37,380 nt of DNA, taken from contig JAFSEN010000067.1 of the NCBI GenBank assembly GCA_017435745.1, forward strand, positions 1 to 37,380, read 5' to 3'. Below are positions 20,038-37,380 of this stretch, in pieces. The notes under the pieces were generated by a model that saw nothing but the letters and a program-made list of their open reading frames with translations, was not told the DNA's origin and made no database searches. Source of the stretch: Oscillospiraceae bacterium (GTDB taxonomy: Bacteria > Bacillota > Clostridia > Oscillospirales > Ruminococcaceae). Position numbers and translations under genes: made by a program. Each line of letters starts with the position of its first letter. Position 1 is the first letter of the stretch.

Positions 20038-21315
20038 TTACGCAGAAAGGAAGGAATCTATTGCTTCAACATCTCGCTTTTTTATAGAAATGGAAACATC
20101 GGTATAAATATCCATGGTTATCGATAATGAAGAATGCCCCATGATTTCCTGGATGATTTTTGGATCAACCCCGGATTCGAACATTCTCGTTGCAAAACTG
20201 TGTCTGAATGTGTGGCAGGAAATGGGCGGTAATTTTAAAGATTCCGGAGAAGATGTTCGGTTATAGCTGTTTACGATATTTTCAAGAGGATCATTAATTC
20301 CTGTAGTAAAAAATGGTTTTCCATGGCAACTGAGAAAGCAAAAATCACTTTTTCCATCTACAGAAAGAGTTCCGCTGATATTTTTTTCTTTCTGTTTTTC
20401 TTTTTCCGAAATGAAGGCGTCCCGGACTGTTTTGGACATTGGTATAATGCGATTTCCGGAAGATGTTTTTGTGTTATGAAAATGAAAATTATAATTTTTT
20501 TCTTTAGGGGCTTTATAGTAAGTCAAAGTTTTTGAAACATTTATGGTGGAATTTTCAAAATCAATATCGCTCCATAAAAGAGCGGTTAGCTCGCCGACGC
20601 GAAGGCCTGTGCCAAGAAAAATGATTATGATGTTGCGCCAACGTTTATATCTGTTGCTTTTGGAAACAAATTCAATCAAGGCTTGCTGTTCTTCAGCGGT
20701 AAGGGCTTTTTTGCTGCTGCAATTTTTATCAGTAACAGATTTGAATTCTTTAAATGCGCGTTTGGCAGGATTATCACGGATAATATGTTCTGCAACGGCG
20801 CTGTCAAGGACTTGGTTGATTAAGACATGGATAAGCTGAATCGTTTTAATTCCCAGAAACTTCTCTTCATTTAAATAAATATAAAATCGTTTTAAATCGG
20901 TAAGACCAAGGCGGGAAAGCGGGTTGTTTCCAATTCTGGGGTTTATATGGTTTTTAAACGAATTTAAATATAAATTTGCGGTGCTTGGACGGATTCCTCT
21001 TTTAACGGCAAACCATTTTTTGAAATAATCTTCAAGAGTAAGACTCTCAGGGGAAAAGAAAATACCATCAAGGCGGTCTTTTGTTATTGCATCTTCTTTC
21101 TGACGAAGTTCCTTCAGCGTTTGGGCATAAACGTCGCGGCGTATTCCGAACTCGTCAGTCCAACGGAAGCTGTATGTTCCGTTTTTTCTTTGTGATTCAC
21201 CGGTTTTTAGGACTGCCCGGCTGCTGTCTTTTCTTTTTTGAATTGGATTTTTGATGAAATCATCTGCTTTCTTAAAAAAATTAAAGTAAAAAATCCTCTT
21301 TGAATGTAAATTCAT
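20038..21315 (-). CDS. Tyrosine site-specific integrase (mobile element)
   Basis: The 425-residue protein is a phage/ICE-type tyrosine recombinase. The N-terminal arm-binding domain contains LKTGESQRKNGTYSFRW, similar to Tn916-like integrases. A core-binding domain (LEDYFKKWFAVKRGIRPSTA) and catalytic domain follow. Catalytic residues are Arg in GTGLRVGELTALLW, Lys in TKTSSGNRIIP, HxxR in CHTFRHSFATR, His in GHSSLSITMDIYTDV, and the Tyr in the same segment. It appears intact. The only in-frame ATG (21315) has no ribosome binding site, so the start is uncertain. It marks the left part of an accessory island next to asnS. Confidence 0.9.
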   Translation of the reverse strand: MNLHSKRIFYFNFFKKADDFIKNPIQKRKDSSRAVLKTGESQRKNGTYSFRWTDEFGIRRDVYAQTLKELRQKEDAITKDRLDGIFFSPESLTLEDYFKKWFAVKRGIRPSTANLYLNSFKNHINPRIGNNPLSRLGLTDLKRFYIYLNEEKFLGIKTIQLIHVLINQVLDSAVAEHIIRDNPAKRAFKEFKSVTDKNCSSKKALTAEEQQALIEFVSKSNRYKRWRNIIIIFLGTGLRVGELTALLWSDIDFENSTINVSKTLTYYKAPKEKNYNFHFHNTKTSSGNRIIPMSKTVRDAFISEKEKQKEKNISGTLSVDGKSDFCFLSCHGKPFFTTGINDPLENIVNSYNRTSSPESLKLPPISCHTFRHSFATRMFESGVDPKIIQEIMGHSSLSITMDIYTDVSISIKKRDVEAIDSFLSA

Positions 21316-23855: not shown

Positions 23856-24383
23856 TTAATTGTTTTTGGAAAGGTAGCGGAGAACATCTCTCGCTCGATC
23901 AAGACTTATTTTGTTACCTCCACCGTGCTTGAGCCAGGAATTCAGATTTCCGGGGTTTATCTTCAGATCGGTGTACAGGCGGTAGTTAGTTATACCTTTT
24001 TCTTCCTGTAAACGGAGAATTCTGTTCCGCATCATTTCCTTGGTCATATCATCACTGTAGTGGCTGTTCTTCTTTGCAAGATAACTCCTCCATACTTTCT
24101 GGTAACCTTCCGGGAGCAAGCCTTTACCCATAATATCTTCAAGGGTATTACCCTCAAGAACGGAAAGGGGGTGTGCATAGAATTCGTCTAGTCCGAAACG
24201 TTTTGCGGCGCGAAGAAGAATATCTTTTTTGCCGGAAGCCAATGCATAAAGCAAAAGCGGTTCACGAAGACGAGGGTTATCGGATGCAGCTTCCTTTGCA
24301 AGAGTGAAAACTGAGGTTGTACCGGCTTTTGATAAAGAACGCACATATTCAGTTAAAAATCCCAGAAATGTGAGCTCTCTCAA
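23856..24383 (-). CDS. HTH-containing partner of the nucleotidyltransferase (putative antitoxin or regulator)
   Basis: The 175-residue protein has a helical N-terminal part of unknown family (residues 1-110) and a C-terminal segment that reads like an HTH: ITNYRLYTDLKINPGNLNSWLK then LDRARDVLRYL (residues about 130-172). It overlaps the upstream nucleotidyltransferase by 4 bases (ATGA), typical of a two-gene unit. I infer an antitoxin/autoregulator role from this arrangement only. An alternative is an element-encoded regulatory protein with no toxin link. Confidence 0.7.
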   Translation of the reverse strand: MRELTFLGFLTEYVRSLSKAGTTSVFTLAKEAASDNPRLREPLLLYALASGKKDILLRAAKRFGLDEFYAHPLSVLEGNTLEDIMGKGLLPEGYQKVWRSYLAKKNSHYSDDMTKEMMRNRILRLQEEKGITNYRLYTDLKINPGNLNSWLKHGGGNKISLDRARDVLRYLSKNN

Positions 24384-24898
24384 GGGCGGTACCTCCTTAC
24401 ATATTCTTCATAATTATAAATGAATTCGCTGTATCCTCTGTCGGATATATTGGCTTTAAGTTCGTCTTCATCGGTTGCGAGTTTTTCAAGAAGCTCCCAA
24501 TCGAGCGATTTTATAACTTCGGGACTGATTACATCCTGCCGGTCTGTGTCGCGGTAAGAACAAAGCTTTGCAATTACGATGTCTTCAAGAGAAGCGGTGT
24601 AAAAATCAATTTTTTTGCTTTCAATATCAAGTTTGTGCAAGCGGTCTTCATAATTGTACGGGAAATTATTGATATATGCGGCAACCTGTGCGTTGATATC
24701 ATATCTCTCAAGAAGCGGCATGAGCTCCCGCGAAACGCTCAGAGCATCAATATCCAAAGTAGCCCGGTCGATGGTTTCCAAAAGGATAAGAGCGCCTCCG
24801 CCGACGATTACGAGGCGGAAACGACTGTTGTCTTCGTAAAGAAGAGAAGCATCTTCATCAAGCCTTTTAAGGCGTTCCACAAGCTCTTTATATTCCAT
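24380..24898 (-). CDS. DUF6036-type nucleotidyltransferase (putative toxin)
   Basis: The 172-residue protein shows the minimal nucleotidyltransferase signature: VIVGGGALILLETIDRATLD followed by the metal-binding pair DID, then IDFYTASLEDIVIAKLCSYRDTDRQDV, as in DUF6036/AbiEii-like enzymes. Such enzymes act as toxins by adding nucleotides to tRNA or proteins in the systems studied. It precedes and overlaps the HTH gene. The ribosome binding site is weak (AGAAGTG). The promoter and a small inverted repeat just upstream suggest autoregulation. Confidence 0.75.
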   Translation of the reverse strand: MEYKELVERLKRLDEDASLLYEDNSRFRLVIVGGGALILLETIDRATLDIDALSVSRELMPLLERYDINAQVAAYINNFPYNYEDRLHKLDIESKKIDFYTASLEDIVIAKLCSYRDTDRQDVISPEVIKSLDWELLEKLATDEDELKANISDRGYSEFIYNYEEYVRRYRP

Positions 24899-25622: not shown

Positions 25623-25645
25623 ACATGTCTTTTCTTGCTGACTTT
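25623..25645 (+). promoter_or_regulatory. Shared 23-base upstream element, copy 1
   Basis: The element starts ACATGTCTTTTC and ends GCTGACTTT. It matches 34930-34952 at 22 of 23 bases. In both cases it begins exactly 57 bases before the -10 box of a riboswitch leader. Candidate activator or repressor site. Confidence 0.6.
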
Positions 25646-25656
25646 ACCGTAAGCAA

Positions 25657-25685
25657 TGGAAAAATCGGTTTGATGAGTATATAAT
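25657..25685 (+). promoter_or_regulatory. Promoter of cobalamin-riboswitch unit 1
   Basis: TATAAT (25680-25685) is clear; TGGAAA (25657-25662) is a weak -35 at 17 bases. A weak -35 suggests help from an activator. Confidence 0.55.
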
Positions 25686-25736
25686 ACAGATAAAGTCTTA
25701 CATACAAAAAGGTATTAAAATCAAAAACGAATATGC

Positions 25737-25950
25737 TGCATCAAGTTCCGCGTCAAGACCGGCGGTTTTTGCCGGGCGTTGGAATAAGGAAATCCGGTTG
25801 GAGTCCGGAGCCCACCCAGGGGCTGTAAGTGCAGGAGTTTTTTATCCGCGGCGCAAGCCGGCCATTGGCCAGAAGCTGAGAAGGTAGGATAAAGAACGCA
25901 GGAAAAAATTGTTTTCCCCAATGCATGAGCCAGAAAGCCAGTGATGATCG
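25737..25950 (+). promoter_or_regulatory. Cobalamin riboswitch 1
   Basis: The core AGGAAATCCGGTTGGAGTCC, then GGAGCCCACCCAGGGGCTGT, corresponds to the conserved GGGAAxxCGGTG...TCCGG...CTGT of cobalamin riboswitches. GGCCATTGG, GAGAAGGTAG and TGCATGAGCCAGAA follow in the expected order. The closing stem can form from CATCA (25739-25743) and TGATG (25942-25946). Copy 2 has the same core with a different but also complementary closing stem. Cobalamin binding is expected to favour the downstream terminator and shut off the genes. Confidence 0.85.
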
Positions 25951-26013
25951 AGCCCGAAGAACGCAAAAACCGCAATTTTGCGCGGACGGGAAAGTTTTGG
26001 GAACAGAAATTCG

Positions 26014-26048
26014 GCTGCAATAACCAAGGTGTTATTGCAGCTTTTTTT
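26014..26048 (+). terminator. Regulatory terminator of cobalamin riboswitch 1
   Basis: GCTGCAATAAC (26014-26024) pairs perfectly with GTTATTGCAGC (26031-26041) and is followed by seven T. It lies between the riboswitch and the first ribosome binding site, so it is an attenuator. Confidence 0.88.
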
Positions 26049-26070
26049 ATTGCCAAAAAAGGAGAAAAAG

Positions 26071-26337
26071 TTGATTTCGGAAGAAAACATAATTTTAAGG
26101 GAAGAAAAACGCGGACTTAACGAGGAACGAAGGATCCTTGAAGATAAGTTTGCGGAAGAACATAAAAACAGTACCGACAAGGAACTTCTTGATGTAGTCC
26201 GGAAAAAAGCAGAGGAACTTGAAAGGCTCCCCAAAAAACACGAAGTGGTTGGATTTGTCTGCATTAAAGCAAGGTTCGGCCCCTGGCCGAGAGTTCTTGA
26301 AAAAGCCGGACTGAAAGAAAAGAAGGCAAAAAAATAA
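26071..26337 (+). CDS. Small HNH-repeat (homing endonuclease associated repeat) protein
   Basis: The 88-residue product has a charged N-terminal helix (residues 1-30) and one copy of the repeat found next to HNH/homing nucleases: KELLDVVRKKAEELERLPKK, then FGPWPRVLEKAGL. In larger proteins this repeat is thought to bind DNA. No nuclease domain is present. The start is TTG 26071, six bases after GGAG; an open frame further upstream crosses the terminator and is rejected. It is the first gene under riboswitch 1, 102 bases before the dockerin gene with no terminator between. A regulatory role for the unit is possible. Confidence 0.7.
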   Translation: MISEENIILREEKRGLNEERRILEDKFAEEHKNSTDKELLDVVRKKAEELERLPKKHEVVGFVCIKARFGPWPRVLEKAGLKEKKAKK

Positions 26338-26439
26338 CGGAAACCGGGAAAAACAAAATCCCATTAGTTTTAATAAGGTAAAGAAAGAAGTGAACTTAAA
26401 AAAGCATAAATTATTTTCATTAAGAGAGGAGAAACGATA

Positions 26440-27621
26440 ATGAAAAAGAAAATTTTAAGCGTTTTTCTGGCGGCGGTGATGGTTGTTCTTATGCTGCCGG
26501 TAAATGCGATTGCAACGGAAGACGTTGTTTATTTCACTTTGAGCGGCGACGCTCTTTTCCTGAAATCAGAAATTACCGGAGAACCCATGACATATGTTCC
26601 GGTAAAATTTTCCGAACTGGAAAAAATAAATCTTGAAAATTACGGATTGGGAGAATATCTCTATGATAAGGACGGTGACGGAAATTATGAAATAACCGCG
26701 CTCCATCTTCTTGTTTATGCCTATAAAACCCATTATGATCCAAATTTTTCACAGAATGGTGATGGGGATTTTGTTCTTCAAAACGGCCCTGCCCACAGCT
26801 TTTTTGTAAGATTCTGGGGACATGACTGCAACCTTAACTATTATCTGAACGGCGAATATCCAATTGATGAGGAACTCAGCGCGGGAAGCACAACTCCCCA
26901 GGGCGCAACTTCCGACAGAATCGTTCTGGAACCCGGAGATACCCTCAACATGATGATGTTCGAAAGCTGGTCTTTTTATGGAGATCCCCTTGCGGGTTTC
27001 CATTTCTTCACCGATTCAGTTTCGGAAAACCACAGCATTATACATAATCTTTCCGCCAAAAAAGGCGAAGAAGTAACTCTTGGTTATATGCGAGCTTACG
27101 GAAACGTTGATGCAGGCGAAAATGCAAATCACAATTTTGAAGCGGGAGTCAAAGTTTATTACAGCAAAAAAGCTTTTGAAAACGAAAACATTCTCGGTTA
27201 TTCCCCTGAATATGCAAAATATGACTGCGATTACGTTGTAACCGATGAAAACGGCGAATTTTCCATTACTTTTGAAGAAAGCGGAACCTGGTACCTCTGG
27301 ACCGTCGGCGGTTATTCCGACAGCACCTGGAACAATGACAGCACCGACTATGCAATAGTTTCTGCGCCGGCTTATGCGGTTGTAAAGGTTGAAAGTGAGG
27401 AAGAACCGGTAGTTTACGGTGACGTTGACGGAAACGGAAAAGTTGAAGCTTTTGATGCAAGCCTTGTGCTCCAGTATGTTGTAGGAAAAATTTCCGAAAA
27501 TGATATTGCGGTTTTGGCGGCAGACGCTGACGGAAACGGAAAAGTTGAAGCCTATGACGCAAGCCTTGTTCTTCAATATGTTGTAGGAAAAATCGCTTCT
27601 TTCCCGGCGGAAACAAAATAA
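26440..27621 (+). CDS. Secreted dockerin protein with possible transcobalamin-like ligand domain
   Basis: The 393-residue protein has a signal peptide ([19 protein letters not shown], cut near AIA). A domain of about residues 27-170 contains [39 protein letters not shown] and [13 protein letters not shown]. It resembles, in my memory, domains of Firmicutes surface proteins related to the transcobalamin-like (DUF4430) group; this is not verified. A beta-rich domain follows (about 180-320). The C-terminus is a type I dockerin: two near-identical repeats, [20 protein letters not shown] and [20 protein letters not shown], with calcium-binding Asp/Asn residues. There is no sortase motif, so it probably docks to a cohesin. 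GGAG is eight bases before the ATG. Confidence 0.85.
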
Positions 27622-27634
27622 GGAGATAATGAAA

Positions 27635-30600
27635 ATGAAAAAATTGATTTCCATGCTTCTTGCGGTGCTTATGGTTGCGGGAATGTTCCCGATAACCGCA
27701 CTTGCGGAAGAAAACCCGACAATTACATTGACATCGAATATTTCCGAAGCAAAAATCGGAGATACCGTTGAGGTTACAGCCGCGGTTGCAAACAACCCCG
27801 GATTTTCCTCGATGGCTCTTACTCTTCAGTATGATGAAAAAGTTCTTGAATTCAAAGGAATTAAAAAAGAACAGAACCTTTACGGCCAGGAAGTTACCGC
27901 CGGACTTTTCGGTGCAGGAACCTGTGAATATAACGGAAACAAAGTTGCATTTGCTGCCTCTTCCGATATTGCCGTAAACAATACCCTTTTTATTGCTGTT
28001 TTTGAAGTTGTCGGTTATGGCGGAACCGCCGTTTCCGCTTCTGTTGAAGAATTCAAAAAAGCGGACGGAACAAGTTTTGCCGAATCCGCAGTTGTTGTTC
28101 CTTCCGGTTCTGTTAAAGTTGAACAGGAAGTTGTTGAAGCAACTGGAATAACCATTAACAAGGAAAAACTTTATCTTGGAATCGGTGAAGTCGACATTCT
28201 TAAAGCAACCGTTCTTCCGGAAGACGCAACCGACAAAACCGTTGTATGGTCTTCTTCCGCAGAAGGCGTTGCAACAGTTGATCAGAACGGAAGCGTAACT
28301 GCGGTTGCGGCAGGAACCGCAACAATCACCGCAAAAACCGGTGATTTTGAAGCAAGCTGCGAAGTTACCGTCATGGGCAATAAAATCAATGTTAATGATG
28401 ACGTGGTCGACATTACCGATTATACAATCGGATCCATAGCTTCTTATTATGGAAAAGCAACCGGAATAAAAGTTGAAGGTGTGACTGTCAATACTGCTTA
28501 TGAAAACGGAAAAACAGTTTATATAGTTGTTTCTGCAGATATTGCCGACGGTACAAACATCAATACAACATTCCAGACTTCCACCAATAGCTTTACTGTT
28601 GAAGGAGTAAGCGGAGCCATCGCCTTTACTGACGGATGCAACCTCAGTCAGAAACTGGTTGCAAAATATAGTGGCAGACTTGAGCGAGGAAACATAACAT
28701 ATAATCTTGTTTTCATTAAGGAAGAACTTCCAACCGAGGTTCCTTCCGTAATCGTGGAAACAGGTTCCGAAGAGGTTTATCAGTACAACAAATTCGAAAT
28801 CGATCTCAGCAAATATTTCAGCGAAGCTTTTACCTATTATCTTATTGAAGGCGAAACCGAAACCGCAATTGAAGGAAACAAATATTCCGTAAACACCCAG
28901 ATTGTCGGTGAACAGACTTTTGTTTTTGCCGCTGAAAACAACATCGGCAGATCCGAAAAAAACGTTAGCGTAACCGTTAACGTAAAAGAAATTCCGGGCG
29001 GAATTTACATCGGGAAAACCACAAACAACGGTTCTCTTGATATAATCACCTTTAAGGACGGCAGCGGAAATTATATTGAAGGCGCAGCCATTGTTTATGA
29101 TGAAGCAGGCAGAAAAATCGAAGTGACCCTTCCCCAGACTTTTGAGCTCAGCGGAAAAATCACCGCGGAATTCAGCCTTACACAGAATGCTTCGAATCTT
29201 CCTTTTGTTTCGAACAGCACCGCTTTCAATCAGGGAGTAAAAGGCAGCCCTTACAGCATTACCACAACCCTTTCTTCCGGAAAAGCAAACCAGGCGTTCT
29301 ATTTTTACAACGCGGTTCCCAAGGCAACAAGCAATGTTTATGAAACATATACGATAGTTTATAAGATTTTTAACAATATCCCCGTTCTTGCGGAAAATGT
29401 TCCCGAATCTGTTTCCGCAACCGCAACAGCAGGAACCGATTATAAAGTAAATCTTGAAGGCCTTTTTACCGATAAAGATAACGACGCGCTCACTTATGAG
29501 GTCAAGGTTGACGACGGAAACTGGACAGCAGTTTCCGGAAGCGAATATGTCTATAGTAATGACGTTCCCGGAACCTATGCCCTTGTTTTCCGCGCAAGCG
29601 ACGGAAAAGATTATTCCGAAGAAACCCATACCGTAAACCTTACCCTTGAAAACAGCACCGAAACCTATACAACCAACGTTGTTGTTCCGGAAGGCGTTGA
29701 TGCAAAATTCTATATTACAGACGGTTTTGAAAACGGAACCGACGTTCCCGGTGCGGAACTTTCTGCAGAAAAAACAGGAAATATTTATGCCGTAACCGTT
29801 CCCGCAAACATCAGCAAAATCTCTTTCCGCAGCGGGAATATGGGAATGGCTTTTGATGCGGCCGAAAACGGCAGCATCGATCTCAGAAAAGTTTCTATTT
29901 CCGCAAAAGATCTTTCCGGAAAAGAAGCCGAAATCACTTCCACCGTAAAATACGGCGAAAACAATGCCGCCGGCGAAAACAACATCTATCTTCTTGTTGA
30001 AGGAATTGAATATGTTTTCACCGCAAATCCCGTTTCTTCCGATTATGCGGCAAAATCCGTTACCGAAACCCTTCCTTCCGGAGAAGAAGAATATAAAGTT
30101 GAAGCGGTTCTCGATTATAAAAACGCTTTCACCTTTACTGTTCCCGAAGGCGCAACCGCAAAACTTTTTAAATATAATAAATATTACGATTTCACCAATC
30201 TTTCTGCCCTTGCATCCAAAGATAATGAAGACGGAACCGTAACTTATTATTTTAACGCAGATACCAAAAACGGAAACTATGTTTATTACGCTTTCATGGA
30301 AGGCAAAATTACCAAAGCGGGATATCTTGCCTGGGGCACCGCTTCTTTGAATATTACTTTTACTGAAAGCGATTACAGCGCAGACGCAAGATTCGATTAT
30401 TCGGATCCTTCCTATACCAATGAGAACAAAACCGTTGCGGAAGACAATGTTCTTCTCAACGTAAATGCACAGAATGCGCTATGCCTTTCCGTCGGAGAAA
30501 CAAAAACCCTTAAAGGCTACCGCGCCTGGGAAATCATTCCCGTATCCTATAACAACTGGATCATCACCCCCAATTTCCATTTTAACGTTGTATGGGAATC

Positions 30601-33600
30601 CGAAGAGGGAGTTGTAAGCCTTGAGGACAAAGTTTCTCCTTCCGCAGGAAACGGAAACGATTGGCAAACTCTTAAAGCGGAAAAAGAAGGCGTTGCAATC
30701 ATAGAAGTTACCTATGATGCGATCCAGGTTGACGGCGGAACCTATGACGGTCTTTTCGGCGCAACCGACCCCGCAAGATCCGGAATTGTTATAGTTCAGG
30801 TCGACAAAGCCGAAGCAAACGTTGATTTCGGAATTGACGGAAGAGCCGGACAGGGAAGCCTTGTTTATGAAAACAGCATCAAAAAGAATTGGGACGCCGA
30901 ATTCGATACCCTTTATTTCACCGAAGATTCCGGCGAACTTAAACTTTCGCCTTCTTCCGAAGAAACCATCACCGAAGTTGCTGTAAGCGGCGATAAAGGA
31001 GCAAGCTGGACCGTTCTTAATGCAGGAGACGGAGTTTACACCGCACCTATCGTTCACGGAAACAACATAATCCGTGTTACCACCGATAAGGGCACCGCAT
31101 ATCAGGTTGTCCGCGGATACAAAATAACTGTATCCGTTATAGAATTCAGAGGTGACCTTGACGGAATCGTTGAACCCGGCGAAACCGCAAGAGTAACCTT
31201 TAAAGGACTTCACCAGCCCATCCCGAAAATGGCGGGTAACTATAACCCCGGTTACAGAGGCAACACCGAAGGCGACGGCGGCACCCATGTTTCCTTTATG
31301 TTTAACGGAAGCAGAGTTTCCGGAGCAAAAGCTCAGTATAACTTTGCATCCGCCGCAAACTATATTGATGTCGTAATTCCCGAAGAGGGAGCACAGAGCG
31401 AATATGTTCTTTCCGGCGGCTGCATCGGAACCGGAATAATCGGCCTTACCGCATTTGCAGACGGCGGTGACAGCCACAGAAATATTCCCGACGGCGGATG
31501 CACCACCCGCGGTTCTGAATCCACCTACCATACCAGAGCCGTTCTTCCGGATGTGACCATCAAAGTTACTGCTGAAGGCGGAGAACCCGAAGCTCCGAAG
31601 GTAATTGAAATCGAAACAGGTTCCGCAGAACCGGACAAAAACTCCGGAACCGCGCTGAAAAAGATTGTTATCAATGGCTACAGCGGAACTGTTCTTGAGG
31701 AATCCACCGAACAGAATTATGTTATTGAGCTTGAAGAAGATACAAATAAAGAAAGCCCAATAATCATTGAAATGACTGCGCTTCTGAAAGCCAACAAATA
31801 TGATAAAGTGGCAAAAACCCGTTATTTCTGGGCAAACACCCCCAACAGCAAAAACAGAAGCGAAGTAACCATTCTTGAAGAGGATCCGGGAACGGTTACG
31901 GTTCTTCCGGAATGGATCAACGGCGAAGCCGTTGTGATAGTCGGTATCGGCGAAGACGACGGAATTGTTAACGACGGCACAAGAAACAAAGCATATACCC
32001 TTAATTTCAAAATTGCCGGTTCTGTGGAAGAACATGAACACAGCTTTGTAAAAGAAGTTGCGGAAGAAAAATATTTCGTTTCTGCCGCGGATTGCGAAAA
32101 CCCTGCAGTTTATAAACTCTCCTGCGAATGCGGCGAAGCCGGAACCGAAACCTTTAAATACGGAGAAGCTCTGGGCCATACCGAAGTTATAGACGCGGCG
32201 GTAGCGGCTGAGTGTGAAAAAACCGGTCTTACAGAAGGCAAACACTGCTCCGTATGTAACAAAGTTCTTGTGGCACAGGAAGAAATTCCCGCACTCGGAC
32301 ATAAAGACGAAGACAAAAACCATGTTTGCGACAACGGATGCGATGTTGCCCAGGGCACCTGCGAAGACGCTGATAAAGACCACAAATGTGATTACGGCTG
32401 TGACAAAGTTTTCTTCGCACACGAAGATACCAATAAAGACCATGTCTGTGACGAATACGGTGCGTTCTGCGCATACGGCGACATAGGCGAATGTGAAGAT
32501 AACAACTTCGACCATCTCTGCGATTTCTATGGTGTTGAATGTCCTTACCGCAAACTTGAAGAACATGTTGATAACGACAAAGACCACCTTTGCGACGATT
32601 ACCGCCTTGAATGCAAAGTAGGCAGAATCGGCGAACACGCTGACAGCGCGGACGACAAAGACCATATCTGCGATTATTGCAAAGATGAAACGGATATTCT
32701 TGAAGAACACACCGAAATTATCGACGCAGCTGTAGCAGCCACCTGCACCGAAAACGGACTTACCGAAGGTAAACACTGCTCCGTATGTAATGAAGTTCTT
32801 GTTGCGCAGGAAGTTGTTGAAGCATCCGGCCATACAGAGGAAATCATTTCCGGAAAAGAACCTACCTGTACCGAAACCGGACTTACCGAAGGCAAAAAAT
32901 GCTCCGCCTGCGAAACTGTAATTATATCCCAGTCTGTAATCGAAGCGCTTGGACACAACGAAGTTACCGATGAAGCAGTTGAACCTGACTGCGAAAGCAC
33001 CGGTCTTACCGAAGGTAAACATTGCGACCGTTGCGGAGAAGTTCTTGTTGCACAGGAAGTTGTTCCTGCACTCGGACATGATTACAAATATGAAACCACC
33101 AAAGAACCCACCTGCACCGAAAAAGGCGAATTCAGAAAATACTGCGCAAACGGCTGCGGCTTTGAAGAATTTGGTGAGATCGATGCTTTCGGTCACGAAT
33201 GGGGAGATTGGGAAACCATAAAAGAACCCACCTATGAAGAAGAAGGAACCGAAGAACGCGTTTGCGAAGCTTGCGGCGAAAAAGAAACCAAAGCAATCGC
33301 AAAACTTGTTCCTTCCTCCACAGAGGAAATCGTAACCGAAGACGGAAAAACCTATGTTGTTGCATATCAGGAAGACACCGTAATAGTTCCCGAACAGCTT
33401 AAGGAAGAATATCCCGACGAAGAAGCTGTAAAAGAAGCGCTTGTTGAAAACATTGAACTTGAAGGCGAAGAAATCGACGTGACCTTCAGGGAAGTAACCG
33501 TAGGTTATTTCGACGAAGAAGGAAACTTTGTTCCCGCAAGCGAAGAATACTTTGAAAAATACGGAAAACTTGATATCGTTCTTGAATATCCCGAAGGCGC

Positions 33601-33973
33601 GGACAAAGACGACAATTTTGAGGTACATCACCTTAAAGACGACGGAACCATTGAAAACTGCGAGATCAAGGAAAGAACCGATAAAGGCCTTGTAGTTGAG
33701 GTAGAAAGCCTTTCTCCTTTCGCAATCGCATATACCGAAAAAGTTGAGGAAGAAGATGAAAAGTTCACCTGGTCCGATCTTTTCGAGTGGCTTGAAGACC
33801 ACAAAAATCCTTCCGATGATGAAGATAAGGAACCTTCCTTCATCTATGAAGGAAACAATTCCGAAGAGGACGAAACTAACCCCAACACCGGAGCACCGGT
33901 ATATTCAGGTTCCGCTTTTGCGGCAATCGCCGTTCTTGGTGCTGCTGTATATGTTCTCGGAAAAGGGAGATAA
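27635..33973 (+). CDS. Giant cell-wall-anchored cohesin protein
   Basis: The 2112-residue protein has a signal peptide ([20 protein letters not shown]), a cohesin-like domain (about 25-168; [20 protein letters not shown]-type core is seen as [18 protein letters not shown]), and a Big2 Ig-like domain (about 172-248). A long series of beta-rich modules follows to about 1460. Residues 1465-1890 hold Cys-rich repeats of the type [20 protein letters not shown] and KDHxCD. The C-terminus has NPNTGA (about 2082), a hydrophobic helix and KGR, a sortase-type anchor. ATG 27635 is nine bases after GGAG; an ATG six bases earlier is too close. It lies 13 bases after the dockerin gene, so the two are probably partners. 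Confidence 0.88.
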
Positions 33974-34005
33974 TTTCCTTACTTTTTAAAATTTCCACAA
34001 AACGG

Positions 34006-34040
34006 AAAAAGAGCCCTGCCGATCCGGCAGGGCTCTTTTT
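34006..34040. terminator. Bidirectional terminator between the giant surface gene and the AraC gene
   Basis: AAAAAGAGCCCTGCC pairs with GGCAGGGCTCTTTTT around a small loop. It serves both convergent genes. Confidence 0.9.
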
Positions 34041-34063
34041 CCAATCATAATGAAAAAAACAAA

Positions 34064-34858
34064 TTATTTTACGGGAACGCAGATATATGCTTTTTCGCCT
34101 TTGTAAAATTCAAAACACATTTTTTCTTCGTCAAATTTCTTTTCGGAAAGGGCAAACCATTCGTCAAAAATATATTTCCAGAGCTTGTTGAGCTTTTCGG
34201 AAAGTTTTTCATCAAAAACGGAACAATCCGCTTCAAAAACGGCATATTCCGCTTTCGGAACGTTTATTACGGTGAATCCTTCCGGAATTTTTTCGCAGTT
34301 TGTTTTAAAACCGAAGAAATAGCTGAGCCCGCCGTTCTTTTCGTCAGGATGTATCCAGGCGGCAACTTCACCGCAATCTTCAAGGTCTTCGGGATAGGCG
34401 GGATATTTTGTGAAATCGATTTTTTTCCAGTAAGCTCCGTATTCCTCACTTCTGATTTCTTCCCGGGGGATTATGCAATAGCCTACTGCGGAAAAAGATT
34501 CTTTTTCGGTAAAAACAGGATTTATTTTTTTCTCTTTCATAAAGTTTTTTCTGTATTCGGAAGCGTTTGTTCCATATTCTTTGCGGAAAGCTTTTGCAAA
34601 ACCGGAGGGGGTGTCGTATCCCGCTCTTATGGCGGATTCGGTTATGCTCATTCCGGAAGCAATGTTTTCCGCCGCTTTTTCAAGCTTTTTGTGGGAAATA
34701 TATTCCGCAACAGGAACACCGAAATGCGCCCGGAAAAGATGGCAGAAATGATAGAGCGAATATCCGGAATATTCTGCAAGTTCCATAGCCGTTGGCGGAT
34801 ATTCAAGATGTTCGCCGATATATTTTTCGCATTTTTCCATAACTTCAATATAATTCAT
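34064..34858 (-). CDS. AraC family regulator with GyrI-like effector domain
   Basis: The 264-residue protein has two N-terminal helix-turn-helix motifs (about 1-110; MELAEYSGYSLYHFCHLFRA and ITESAIRAGYDTPSGFAKAF). A C-terminal GyrI-like small-molecule-binding domain follows (about 120-264; FTEKESFSAVGYCIIP, then WIHPDEKNGGLSYFFGF). ATG 34858 is chosen because GGAGG lies 12 bases upstream; earlier in-frame codons would run into the promoter. It is divergent from riboswitch unit 2, and the shared 23-base element lies between them. It may control that unit, its own gene, or both; the ligand is unknown. Confidence 0.88.
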   Translation of the reverse strand: MNYIEVMEKCEKYIGEHLEYPPTAMELAEYSGYSLYHFCHLFRAHFGVPVAEYISHKKLEKAAENIASGMSITESAIRAGYDTPSGFAKAFRKEYGTNASEYRKNFMKEKKINPVFTEKESFSAVGYCIIPREEIRSEEYGAYWKKIDFTKYPAYPEDLEDCGEVAAWIHPDEKNGGLSYFFGFKTNCEKIPEGFTVINVPKAEYAVFEADCSVFDEKLSEKLNKLWKYIFDEWFALSEKKFDEEKMCFEFYKGEKAYICVPVK

Positions 34859-34904
34859 TTTTATATAAAACCTCCGGGGTATTTTGCAGGATTTCAATAA
34901 TGAT

Positions 34905-34937
34905 ATTATACATTTTCCGAATGGAAAGGACATGTCC
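34905..34937 (-). promoter_or_regulatory. Promoter region of the AraC-type gene with palindrome
   Basis: On the minus strand TATAAT (34905-34910) is a good -10, but no consensus -35 is present. The perfect palindrome GGACATGTCC (34928-34937) occupies that place and overlaps the shared element, which suggests regulator-dependent or autoregulated expression. Confidence 0.5.
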
Positions 34938-34952
34938 TTTCTTGCTGACTTT
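34930..34952 (+). promoter_or_regulatory. Shared 23-base upstream element, copy 2
   Basis: It matches 25623-25645 at 22 of 23 bases and has the same 57-base distance to the -10 box. Its left end lies inside a GGACATGTCC palindrome. Confidence 0.6.
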
Positions 34953-34963
34953 TGTCTATCCGA

Positions 34964-34992
34964 TAGAAAACGGAGCGCTATAGTGTTATTAT
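34964..34992 (+). promoter_or_regulatory. Promoter of cobalamin-riboswitch unit 2
   Basis: TATTAT (34987-34992) is preceded at 17 bases by the weak -35 TAGAAA (34964-34969), as in unit 1. Confidence 0.5.
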
Positions 34993-35014
34993 ATATAAGT
35001 AAATTAAATAATCT

Positions 35015-35216
35015 GCATTGTGTTCCGGCGTTATGGCTGCAATTTTTTGCAGGCGCCGGAATTAGGAAATCCGGTGAGAGTCCGGAGCAGTAACCGTTGC
35101 TGTATGTGCAGGAGTTTTTTGTTCGCGGTGCGAACCGGCCATTGGGAAACCGAGAAGGTAGAGCAAAAAACGCAGGGATCTTTCCCTAAATGCATGAGCC
35201 AGAATGTCGACAATGC
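35015..35216 (+). promoter_or_regulatory. Cobalamin riboswitch 2
   Basis: The core AGGAAATCCGGTGAGAGTCC, then GGAGCAGTAACCGTTGCTGT, is very close to the cobalamin riboswitch consensus. GGCCATTGG, GAGAAGGTAG and TGCATGAGCCAGAA follow, as in copy 1. The closing stem pairs GCATTGT (35015-35021) with ACAATGC (35210-35216). The stem TTCCGGCG/CGCCGGAA flanks the 5' part of the core. Confidence 0.87.
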
Positions 35217-35277
35217 GTGGAAAGCTTTTTTAAAGGTGCGTTTACACCCAAAAGCCAGATAAAGCGGAAAAATTCGG

Positions 35278-35316
35278 CCGCCATAGGTTTTTATACCTGT
35301 GGCGGTTTGTTTTTTT
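35278..35316 (+). terminator. Regulatory terminator of cobalamin riboswitch 2
   Basis: CCGCCATAGGT (35278-35288) pairs with ACCTGTGGCGG (35295-35305), including one G-T pair, followed by TTTGTTTTTTT. It lies directly before the ribosome binding site of the surface gene. Confidence 0.87.
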
Positions 35317-35341
35317 GTAAAGCAGGGAGGAAAAAAGAAAC

Positions 35342-37380
35342 ATGAAAAACGGAAAGTTCAGAAGGATAATCTCGTTTTTGCTTGGGGCAATAATGGTTTT
35401 GGGGGCGTTTCCGGTTACCGTATTTGCAAACGAAGAACCGGCAATAACCCTTGCTTCGGATGTTTTTGAAGCGAAAAAAGGCGACGAAGTCGAGGTTACT
35501 GCGGCGATTGCAAATAACCCCGGTTTTGTTTCAATGGCTGTTTTGCTTCAATATGATGAAAAGGTTCTTGAATTCAAGGGCCTTAAAAAAGTGCTTAACA
35601 ATTACGGCCAGGAAGTTACCGCAGGCCTTTTCGGAGCGGGAACCTGCGAATATAATGGGAACAAAATCGCCTATGCGGGAACTTCGGAAATTGCTGTTGA
35701 TAATGACCTTTTCACTGCGGTTTTTGAAGTTGTGGGTTCCGGGGAAACTGAAGTTTCCGTTTCGGTCGAGGAATTCAAAAACGCATCCGGAAAAAGCTTT
35801 GCGGAAGCTGTAACGGTTTTTCCTTCCGGTGCGGTAAAAGTTGAAACGGAGGAAGTTCCCGTTTCGCTCGATATAACAAAACTCACCATTACGGAAGGAA
35901 AAACAGCGGTTATTACCGCAACCGTTGTTCCGGAAGAAAAAGCGGAGGAACTTGTCTGGTCCTCTTCGGATGAAAATGTTGCGTCCGTTGAAAACGGAAT
36001 TGTAACCGCAGTTTCCGCCGGAGAAGCGGTTATCAAAGCTTCGATTGGAGAAAATTTTGCGGAATGCAAAGTTACCGTAACTGAATTTGAATCATATTTT
36101 GATTATGTATATCTTTCCGAAAGCGCATATATCCTTAACAGCGGAAGCACCAACGAATATCCCATGGAACCGAATTTCAGCGGAAAGATTTTTGAATATT
36201 CTGCCTTTGCGCCGGACGTTTATTCAAGAACTTTCGCCTGGGCAAAACTTTCGGAAGCTGCGCCTTCCGGTTCAAAAATTACTGCAAAATGGACAAACAC
36301 CGAGGGAAGCATCTGCCTTGCAGACGTTGAATCCGGAAAAGAAACCGGAAAAAACCTTGCAAACGTTTTAAAACAGGGTAACGAAGGCGGCGCGGTTGTT
36401 TTTGAAGCCGGAACCGAAGACGATATCCAGACCTATGTTATAAATATAAAACGCAGCCCGACCCTTTCCGCAATTTCCGTTAAAGATGAAAACGGAAAAG
36501 AGATCCGTCTTTCGGAAAACTTTTTGCACAGTGTAACAGAATACAAAGCCTCTTCCGGAGCGGAAAAAATTGAAATTGACGCTGTTCCTTTTGATGAAAG
36601 CTATACCGTAACTTATAACGGAGGCGAAGAGAGTATTTTTTACCTTTCGGAAGGGGAAAACAAAATTGAGATCAAAGTTGAAAACGAAGAGGGAATTTCA
36701 AAAACATATAACCTCAGCGTGACAAAAAAAGCCGTTCCGAAAATCAAATTTGAAGTTTCCCCGGAGGAAGCGCTTGTGTTTGTGGAAGATGAATTCCACA
36801 AAAGGATCCTTCCTAACGAAAAGGGGGAATTTGAACTTCTCAGCGGCGAAACTTATACCTATAACGTGACAGCAGAAGGTTACATCGGAAAAACCGCGGA
36901 ATATGTTCCGGAAGAAGACGCCGTTATCGCAATAAACATTGAAAAAGCGCCGGAAACTTACTTTAAAGAATATGATTCAAGCTGGCCCTTCTTCGGGCTT
37001 AATGATCAGAACAACATGGTCATTGACCGCCCGACCCCCCTTACAAAGGACGAAACCGCGCTTTATTGGGCGAACAGAATAGGCGACGGATTTGATTACG
37101 GCGCAACCGGTGTTCCGATTCTTGTTGACGATTATCTTTATTGCTACGCCGGAAAAACCATTATGAAAATTGAAAAGGAAAGCGGAGAAATTGTTCTCAC
37201 CGGGGAAATGACCGGCGGTTCATCAACCTATGCGATCTGTTCCCTTACCTATGCGGAAGGGCTTGTTTTTGTAGGACTTAATAACGGAACCGTTCAGGCT
37301 TTCAATGCGGAAACCCTTGAATCCGTATGGCTTTACCGCGATCCGCTTAACGGCCAGCCAAACGCCCAGATCACTTACAG
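35342..37380 (+). CDS. Secreted cohesin / Ig-like / beta-propeller protein (runs off the window)
   Basis: About 679 residues are visible and the frame is open to the window end. A signal peptide (cut near VFANEE) is followed by a cohesin-like domain (about 31-172) closely related to that of the giant protein: [18 protein letters not shown] and [20 protein letters not shown] are shared. Next are a Big2 domain (about 178-245), a region of unknown type, and a cadherin-like beta-sandwich (LSAISVKDENGKEIRLSENF onward). From about residue 550 PQQ-like beta-propeller blades start (GVPILVDDYLYCYAGKTIMK, VFVGLNNGTVQAFNAETLES). GGGAGG is 11 bases before the ATG. Riboswitch 2 and its terminator sit directly upstream. 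Confidence 0.85.
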   Translation, partial: MKNGKFRRIISFLLGAIMVLGAFPVTVFANEEPAITLASDVFEAKKGDEVEVTAAIANNPGFVSMAVLLQYDEKVLEFKGLKKVLNNYGQEVTAGLFGAGTCEYNGNKIAYAGTSEIAVDNDLFTAVFEVVGSGETEVSVSVEEFKNASGKSFAEAVTVFPSGAVKVETEEVPVSLDITKLTITEGKTAVITATVVPEEKAEELVWSSSDENVASVENGIVTAVSAGEAVIKASIGENFAECKVTVTEFESYFDYVYLSESAYILNSGSTNEYPMEPNFSGKIFEYSAFAPDVYSRTFAWAKLSEAAPSGSKITAKWTNTEGSICLADVESGKETGKNLANVLKQGNEGGAVVFEAGTEDDIQTYVINIKRSPTLSAISVKDENGKEIRLSENFLHSVTEYKASSGAEKIEIDAVPFDESYTVTYNGGEESIFYLSEGENKIEIKVENEEGISKTYNLSVTKKAVPKIKFEVSPEEALVFVEDEFHKRILPNEKGEFELLSGETYTYNVTAEGYIGKTAEYVPEEDAVIAINIEKAPETYFKEYDSSWPFFGLNDQNNMVIDRPTPLTKDETALYWANRIGDGFDYGATGVPILVDDYLYCYAGKTIMKIEKESGEIVLTGEMTGGSSTYAICSLTYAEGLVFVGLNNGTVQAFNAETLESVWLYRDPLNGQPNAQITY

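Follow-up and report, generated by a model that had tools for sequence, protein, structure and literature searches.

Two cobalamin riboswitch-controlled units encoding a putative cohesin–dockerin surface system for corrinoid capture in an Oscillospiraceae bacterium

Results

Organization of the locus

The window analyzed here is a whole contig of 37,380 nt (JAFSEN010000067.1) of an Oscillospiraceae bacterium whose genome assembly comprises 1.82 Mb in 103 contigs. Labels beginning with G, C and L denote genomes, contigs and fetched loci; the window's own genome is G000 and the window itself is G000:C56. Towards its right end lie two units, each preceded by a cobalamin riboswitch, whose genes encode predicted surface proteins with cohesin or dockerin domains.

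The riboswitches are located at 25726..25958 (unit 1) and 35003..35229 (unit 2), both on the + strand. When the window was scanned against Rfam with cmscan, they were the only matches over the gathering thresholds. Both align with RF00174 over its full length (model positions 1–189 of 189), with 40.2 bits (E 6.3e-7) and 41.9 bits (E 2e-7) against a gathering score of 31.5 bits. Each is followed on the same strand by an intrinsic-terminator hairpin with a T run, a putative attenuator, at 26013..26042 (−17.1 kcal/mol, z −4.92) and 35276..35307 (−23.1 kcal/mol, z −6.60); for neither hairpin was any of 200 shuffles equally stable. The two cobalamin riboswitches with attenuators that had been proposed in a sequence-only reading of the window were hence confirmed, the RF00174 match being one of the checks it had suggested. 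They represent two subtypes, one per unit, which are kept across the genus; in an alignment of 15 sequences, column identity averaged 77%. Judging from the RF00174 identity, transcription would pass the terminators when adenosyl-corrinoid is scarce. Tandem cobalamin riboswitches were also seen in other genomes: in L166/L167 (G151, G315), where they flank a small HNH_repeat gene, and in G003:C43, G013:C34 and G007:C19. The second copy scores below the cut-off in G013 and G007.

Unit 1 comprises genes for an HNH_repeat protein, a dockerin protein (P1) and a cohesin protein (P2), while unit 2 starts with the gene of a cohesin/propeller protein (P3). P1 (open reading frame (ORF) 26440..27621, + strand) is predicted to be secreted. 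It consists of an N-terminal domain at approximately residues 25–320, hereafter the P1 domain, and a C-terminal type I dockerin (PF00404, 46 bits); the dockerin segment at 27415..27582 (+) scores 50.8 bits and includes two near-identical calcium-loop repeats. The P2 ORF (27629..33973, +) starts 7 bases after the end of P1 and codes for a putative wall protein of 2114 amino acids. P2 contains an N-terminal cohesin (27743-27988, +, 31.0 bits), Big_2 domains, a core at approximately residues 830–1370 (P2 core) and a C-terminal NPNTG motif with a hydrophobic tail; this tail region and the signal peptides were judged by eye. P3 (ORF 35342..37380, +) includes a cohesin (35468-35839, +, 26.7 bits), Big_2 and cadherin-like domains and the start of a PQQ beta-propeller. 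As the window is the whole contig, P3 is incomplete, being cut by the contig end.

The cohesin scores of P2 and P3 come from a genome search with a cut-off of 24.1 bits. In whole-protein scans the P2 cohesin was absent at E ≤ 1 and the P3 cohesin reached 22.2 bits, below the cut-off, and both are therefore regarded as divergent cohesins. The propeller of P3 corresponds to a partial PQQ_2 match of 26.8 bits, slightly below the cut-off of 27.6. The dockerin and cohesins named in the sequence-only reading were recovered, and so were its three surface proteins; these do not occur as a set in each unit, as it had stated, but are divided between the two. Its beta-propeller stands as a partial match just short of the cut-off. 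In relatives, the unit-2 surface proteins end right after NPNTGAPIF or NPETGAPVF, without a hydrophobic tail (L060, about 14593; L103, about 8653); the motif looks like a sorting signal nonetheless.

The P1 domain defines a riboswitch-linked family

Neither Pfam nor NCBIfam gave the P1 domain a match above a cut-off. Of the 11 PDB sequences matched at E ≤ 1, the best had E 0.022 and none is related to B12. Residues 1–319 of P1 were then used as a query against 198 relatives, including 14 other genomes of the genus. The search gave 23 match rows in 12 genomes, with matches in 8 of the 14 congeneric ones. Five rows were discarded, as they reached no further than the first 29–71 residues and reflected the signal peptides of secreted but unrelated proteins; among the 18 left, one, starting 92 bases from a contig end, was not assessable. 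RF00174 is present within 1 kb upstream and on the same strand in 14 of the 17 assessable loci, and the other three lie 4.4–4.9 kb downstream of one. A profile search across the order (394 genomes) added six strong loci (E < 1e-20), five of them with RF00174 within 1 kb upstream. Rows weaker than E 1e-20, some of which cover part of the domain's second half (G460, G489, G284 and others), were left out of the counts. Altogether, a same-strand RF00174 is found upstream within 1 kb in 19/23 assessable loci, and within 5 kb in 22/23.

Profile comparison with hhalign related the P1 domain (97.7%) to secreted proteins of other families (L184 1700-2509 and L180 618-1412) that are encoded behind a riboswitch and HNH_repeat genes. 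Comparison with DUF4430 gave probabilities of 1% and 17%, which are not significant, and one suggestive motif (NG-YP ... GD).

P1-domain genes are found together with vitamin-uptake type genes

Four other families have loci that unite a riboswitch and a P1 domain with toroid-like, DUF4430 and ATP-binding cassette (ABC)/energy-coupling factor (ECF) genes. The locus of Clostridia bacterium RGIG8738 (L056, that is, G151:C34) begins with two riboswitches, followed by the gene of a 1150-amino-acid protein that includes a P1 domain, a weak toroid match and a dockerin. Next come genes for a 230-amino-acid cohesin protein, in which a membrane segment was recognized by eye, and for a lipoprotein with DUF4430 (56.0 bits); CbiQ and a fusion of ABC and S component are encoded after these. 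Loci L138, L139 and L140 combine a riboswitch, a P1 domain, a toroid-like stretch, DUF4430 and ABC/ECF genes. Pfam recognized CbiQ in L056 and L006; in L139 and L140, where Pfam gave no match at 1e-5, it was assigned by eye. Locus L142 presents a riboswitch, a P1 domain with a PQQ propeller, a toroid match and a DUF4430 match of 17.2 bits, below the cut-off. The gene set with riboswitches, which the sequence-only reading had suggested searching for in other genomes, does recur.

A CbiQ/CbiO-type transporter is hence encoded in the same gene row in L056, L138, L139 and L140, and under the same riboswitch class in G000. The latter genome has five cobalamin riboswitches, two of them in the window. 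That of contig C30 heads a row of genes whose products are a lipoprotein with DUF4430 (56.2 bits), a protein of CbiQ type, a double ABC ATPase and the S component of an ECF transporter. That of C3 comes directly after a CobO/BtuR adenosyltransferase gene; a CobO/BtuR gene is also present just upstream of the unit-1 riboswitch in two genomes of the genus (L059, L063). The C10 riboswitch precedes the gene of a 1500-amino-acid NPNTG protein that is 27% identical to P2 over residues 490–1313. This third riboswitch-controlled NPNTG surface protein (L008 10249-14748, − strand) is a relative of the P2 core; Pfam recognizes no cohesin in it.

A cohesin–dockerin pair seems to replace a covalent link

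Residues 149–679 of P3 (from 171 in L068) align at 51–66% identity with seven proteins of the same genus (L060, L061, L062, L064, L065, L066 and L068). Each of the seven carries an N-terminal P1 domain in place of the cohesin of P3. A DUF4430 protein follows in the seven loci, as judged by alignment and, for L060 only, by Pfam (26.5 bits; cut-off 23.8). In each of the seven genomes the unit also continues with a gene for a toroid-like lipoprotein, incomplete in G009, that shares 85–100% identity with the L060 one; L060 has a MoxR ATPase too according to Pfam, as do L061, L062 and L068 by reading. In G000 and G005, a cohesin–dockerin pair seems to take the place of the covalent link between P1 domain and propeller, and this swap between fused and split forms suggests that P1 docks on P3.

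Contig C33 of G005 carries both units intact. Its unit 1 consists of a riboswitch and genes for a P1-domain–dockerin protein, a cohesin–dockerin adaptor and a 1983-amino-acid wall protein (cohesin detected with a home-made model), with an AraC-like gene next to them. Unit 2 consists of a riboswitch and the gene of a 1499-amino-acid cohesin–propeller protein (cohesin 21.7 bits and PQQ_2 27.5 bits, both just under the cut-offs), followed by genes for a 599-amino-acid DUF4430 protein (26.6 bits), a toroid-like lipoprotein of 341 amino acids (24.6 bits, and 78% identity with the L060 one), a MoxR-like protein (by reading) and DUF58. The toroid-like lipoprotein, whose best PDB matches are squalene-cyclase-type proteins (E 5e-6), is encoded after unit 2 in eight genomes of the genus (G002, G003, G005, G006, G009 (partial), G010, G013 and G014). 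When this tail of unit 2 was sought in G000, the sole match was a toroid-like paralogue on C26, 37% identical. The arrangement in G005 suggests which genes may lie beyond the contig end in G000.

Pairing of cohesins and dockerins

Aligned over 139 columns, the P2 and P3 cohesins share 73% identity, as against 34% or less with four other aligned G000 cohesins (three from C77, one of which is cohesin-like by similarity only, and one from C89). The corresponding comparison in G005, between the cohesins of the adaptor and of unit 2, gives 77% identity; to those of P2 and P3 they are 38–39% identical. Such likeness between the cohesins of the two units within a genome would be expected of partners of a single dockerin. 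The P1 dockerin repeats (AFD/AYD ... LQY) are unlike those of six other G000 dockerins, the second repeat of which reads AVDANYIRK. At loci encoding a P1 domain with a dockerin, the next gene codes for a cohesin or cohesin-like domain in eight of nine judged (the window, L056, L063, L064, L069, L070, L071, L072 and L074). The evidence comes from Pfam in the window, L056, L071, L072 and L074, and from the home-made cohesin model in L064, L069 and L070; L059 and L073 (contig ends) as well as L057 were left out of this count. Outside the genus, the sole cohesin–dockerin example known is that of the L056/G151 type, found via the P1 domain; L057 appears alike by eye.

Genome G000 encodes eight dockerins and five cohesins over the Pfam cut-off. 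The six other dockerin proteins analyzed are BspA-type leucine-rich repeat (BspA-LRR), transglutaminase or DUF4886 proteins. Neither in them nor in P1 did Pfam detect a glycoside hydrolase; the eighth, encoded in a cluster on C77, was seen as a translation only. P2 and P3 have one recognized cohesin each and no match to a carbohydrate-binding module, P3 being incomplete. The C77 cluster (L027, 1736-5628; contig cut) encodes a cohesin protein whose C-terminus includes a membrane segment, a cohesin–dockerin protein and a cohesin-like wall protein. It was considered as a possible part of the system and set aside, as no RF00174 match was found there.

The HNH_repeat gene

An 88-amino-acid protein not mentioned in the sequence-only reading is encoded at 26071..26334 (+), between the unit-1 terminator and P1. 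It matches HNH_repeat, the homing-endonuclease-associated repeat (PF18780, 48 bits; cut-off 26), and its TTG start follows a GGAG stretch resembling a ribosome-binding site. Relatives are found behind the riboswitch in L064, L063, L105 and L059, diverged ones in L138, L140 and L056, and another in L139, after the P1 gene of the same gene row. A profile search identified HNH_repeat in 57/394 genomes from 32 genera. Among the 30 best loci fetched (L161–L190), from several families, 26 present RF00174 upstream on the same strand and one (L185) nearby on the opposite strand, which makes 27/30. The remaining three loci contain no RF00174: L162, whose riboswitch is situated about 1.8 kb upstream and outside the fetched region, L186, which is at a contig end, and L190. 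The profile was seeded from riboswitch-adjacent genes, which biases the seed and not the place of new matches. From the 29 downstream proteins extracted, 19 were scanned; DUF4430 was matched in five, cadherin-like domains in five, CbiQ in two and toroid in two (E ≤ 0.01). Going by the domain name, our guess is that the HNH_repeat protein may be a nucleic-acid-binding accessory.

Corrin-ring synthesis in the host genomes

CbiC is required for the corrin ring in both biosynthetic pathways. We searched for it (PF02570) in 16 genomes with P1-domain loci, G000 included, with completeness of 90% or more and contamination of 5% or less in 11 of them. It was found in none (0/16), with controls positive in 7/14. 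As judged from this single gene, the hosts appear to lack corrin-ring synthesis, and the bacterium seems unable to make the B12 ring and dependent on its uptake.

Neighboring genes

Between the two units and divergent from unit 2, the window encodes an AraC-family regulator with a Cass2/GyrI-like effector domain (34064..34933, − strand; Pfam). An AraC-like gene adjoins unit 2 in several relatives (L060 by Pfam; L061, L062, L065, L068 and L072 by reading) and unit 1 in L064; L066 lies at a contig end. To the left of unit 1 are a Tn916-type integrase (20038-21315, −) and a DUF6036 nucleotidyltransferase (24380-24898, −), perhaps a mobile-element neighborhood.

Discussion

We interpret the two units as a surface system for the capture of corrinoids (the B12 family) in an uptake-dependent Gram-positive gut Clostridia bacterium, and put the probability of this interpretation at roughly 0.7. 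Surface corrinoid capture had already been raised as a possibility in the sequence-only reading, and gains support, at the level of gene content, from the DUF4430, toroid-like and ECF neighbors in four other families, from the CbiC result and from the swap between fused and split proteins, besides the riboswitch and terminator matches and the domains recognized. Because no window protein matches the DUF4430 or toroid families and the P1 domain is not significantly DUF4430, it is the gene context that points to corrinoid binding.

The system might operate as follows. At low intracellular adenosyl-corrinoid, both riboswitches would let transcription through the terminators, so that B12 would repress the units. 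The cell would then produce the secreted P1-domain module with its dockerin, the wall-anchored cohesin protein P2 and the cohesin/propeller surface protein P3. P1 would attach to the cohesins of P2 and P3, which resemble each other, and so restore without a covalent bond what in relatives is a single chain, the P1-domain/propeller protein. The DUF4430 protein (transcobalamin beta-domain type) and the toroid-like lipoprotein of the second unit, as present in G005, may help to bind the corrinoid, which would be handed over to the riboswitch-controlled ECF transporter with its own DUF4430 lipoprotein. A more far-reaching picture is that of a modular bacterial counterpart of intrinsic factor, with P1 domain, propeller, DUF4430 and toroid distributed over several surface proteins, joined by a dedicated cohesin–dockerin pair and all released by B12 riboswitches; the HNH_repeat protein would be an order-wide riboswitch companion, perhaps a nucleic-acid-binding second layer of control. 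We advance this only tentatively, giving it somewhat less than an even chance.

Several observations weigh against corrinoid capture. No protein of the window has a Pfam match to DUF4430 or toroid families, the P1 domain has no significant profile match to DUF4430, and the downstream genes of unit 2 are missing from the G000 assembly, where the contig ends. Most toroid matches score under the Pfam cut-off of 26.5 bits (L060 25.6, G005 24.6, L140 18.3, L056 17.8 and L138 15.9), only L139 (26.6) and L142 (28.8) exceeding it. The P1 domain was not matched in 6 of the 14 other genomes of the genus, all of which have cobalamin riboswitches, and the strong P1-domain locus of G449 lacks a riboswitch even at relaxed thresholds. 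No cohesin was found in the gene beside the dockerin protein in G014 (L063). CbiC is one gene only, and 5 of the 16 genomes searched for it are less than 90% complete or more than 5% contaminated. Finally, 7/8 dockerins and 3/5 cohesins of G000 lie outside the riboswitch units; cohesin–dockerin assembly therefore appears as a wider habit of this genome, a part of which is used by the B12 units.

An alternative is that the units are B12-regulated and serve adhesion or surface remodelling when B12 is low, without binding corrinoids directly. P2 and P3 contain Ig-like and cadherin-like domains, and the other dockerin proteins of G000 are mostly BspA-LRR and transglutaminase proteins, both often linked to attachment. 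Cohesin and dockerin proteins of syntrophic sulfate reducers are treated as putative adhesins in PMC10553843. However, in four other families the neighbors of the P1 domain are of the DUF4430, toroid-like and ABC/ECF kinds, and unit 2 of G005 and of seven other genomes of the genus continues with DUF4430 and toroid-like genes, which makes adhesion an unlikely main function. Slightly less probable still is a general surface scaffold in which P1 docks on the C77 or C89 cohesins and P2 and P3 hold leucine-rich repeat proteins, no dedicated B12 complex being formed. The spread of dockerins and cohesins over G000 and the C77 cluster, with cohesins and a dockerin and no riboswitch, would fit such a scaffold. 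It accounts poorly for a P2/P3 cohesin pair so distinct from the four others aligned, for P1 dockerin repeats that differ from the six AVDANYIRK dockerins, and for the fused-versus-split swap. A non-canonical cellulosome associated with riboswitches by chance is very improbable and was rejected: cohesin and type I dockerin domains are present, but no enzyme subunit or carbohydrate-binding family was found in the seven dockerin proteins scanned with Pfam, P2 and P3 have a single recognized cohesin each, and the genes that share operons with the P1 domain are of the vitamin-uptake type.

If corrinoid capture is confirmed, a pair under riboswitch control that stands in for a covalent fusion would widen the natural role of cohesin–dockerin modules and provide new pairs. 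Surface cobamide capture by Gram-positive gut bacteria, a poorly known step, would become testable with a few purified domains, and the P1 domain and the riboswitch-linked HNH_repeat protein would offer new starting points for the study of B12 in gut Clostridia. We found no literature joining cohesin–dockerin with cobalamin control, nor any on the homing endonuclease associated repeat in this context, in a search that left preprints and most subscription journals outside.

Cohesin–dockerin pairs are known above all from polysaccharide-degrading complexes. Like cellulosomes and amylosomes, the system described here combines type I dockerin and cohesin modules, with a secreted dockerin protein encoded beside a wall-anchored cohesin protein. 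It differs from them in that no enzyme subunits were found, each anchor protein has one recognized cohesin and the context is that of vitamin uptake. For cobalamin riboswitch regulons, PMC3766115 lists the classes B12 synthesis, transport of B12 or its precursors, cobalt transport and isozymes. With the ECF cobalamin transporter (CbrT; PMC6593275), G000 shares, by gene content, CbiQ, ABC ATPases and an S component under a cobalamin riboswitch; these genes are, in contrast, located on C30, outside units 1 and 2, and include an extra DUF4430 lipoprotein. Bacteroides BtuG/BtuH (PMC8941943) are likewise riboswitch-controlled surface proteins with beta-propeller and Ig-like domains that capture the vitamin before transport, but they belong to Gram-negative bacteria and are partners of BtuB. 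They are not among the PDB sequence matches of the P1 query (A1) or of the L060 relative of P3.

A close likeness is to the SLBB/DUF4430 systems of Burroughs et al. (2007; PMC1796856). That paper reports transcobalamin-like domains of low-GC Gram-positive bacteria, often with toroids and in CbiO/CbiQ operons; their host species are usually deficient in key enzymes of B12 synthesis, and a role in scavenging the vitamin is proposed, together with the formation of surface complexes. Equating the SLBB clade with Pfam DUF4430 is our own step, weakly supported by the best PDB match of query A3, to transcobalamin-2 (E 0.064). Those systems resemble the present one in their secreted or wall-anchored proteins, beta-propeller and, judging from the toroid-like genes of relatives, toroid partners, CbiO/CbiQ operons and hosts poor in B12 synthesis. 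They differ in that cohesin and dockerin are mentioned 0 times in the main text of the paper, whereas assembly here seemingly relies on a cohesin–dockerin pair; in addition, the P1 domain is not recognizably DUF4430, and riboswitches are shown here. Transcobalamin-like B12 scavenging by Gram-positive bacteria was thus already predicted in 2007, and what is new is the cohesin–dockerin assembly, the P1-domain family and the riboswitch-linked HNH_repeat gene.

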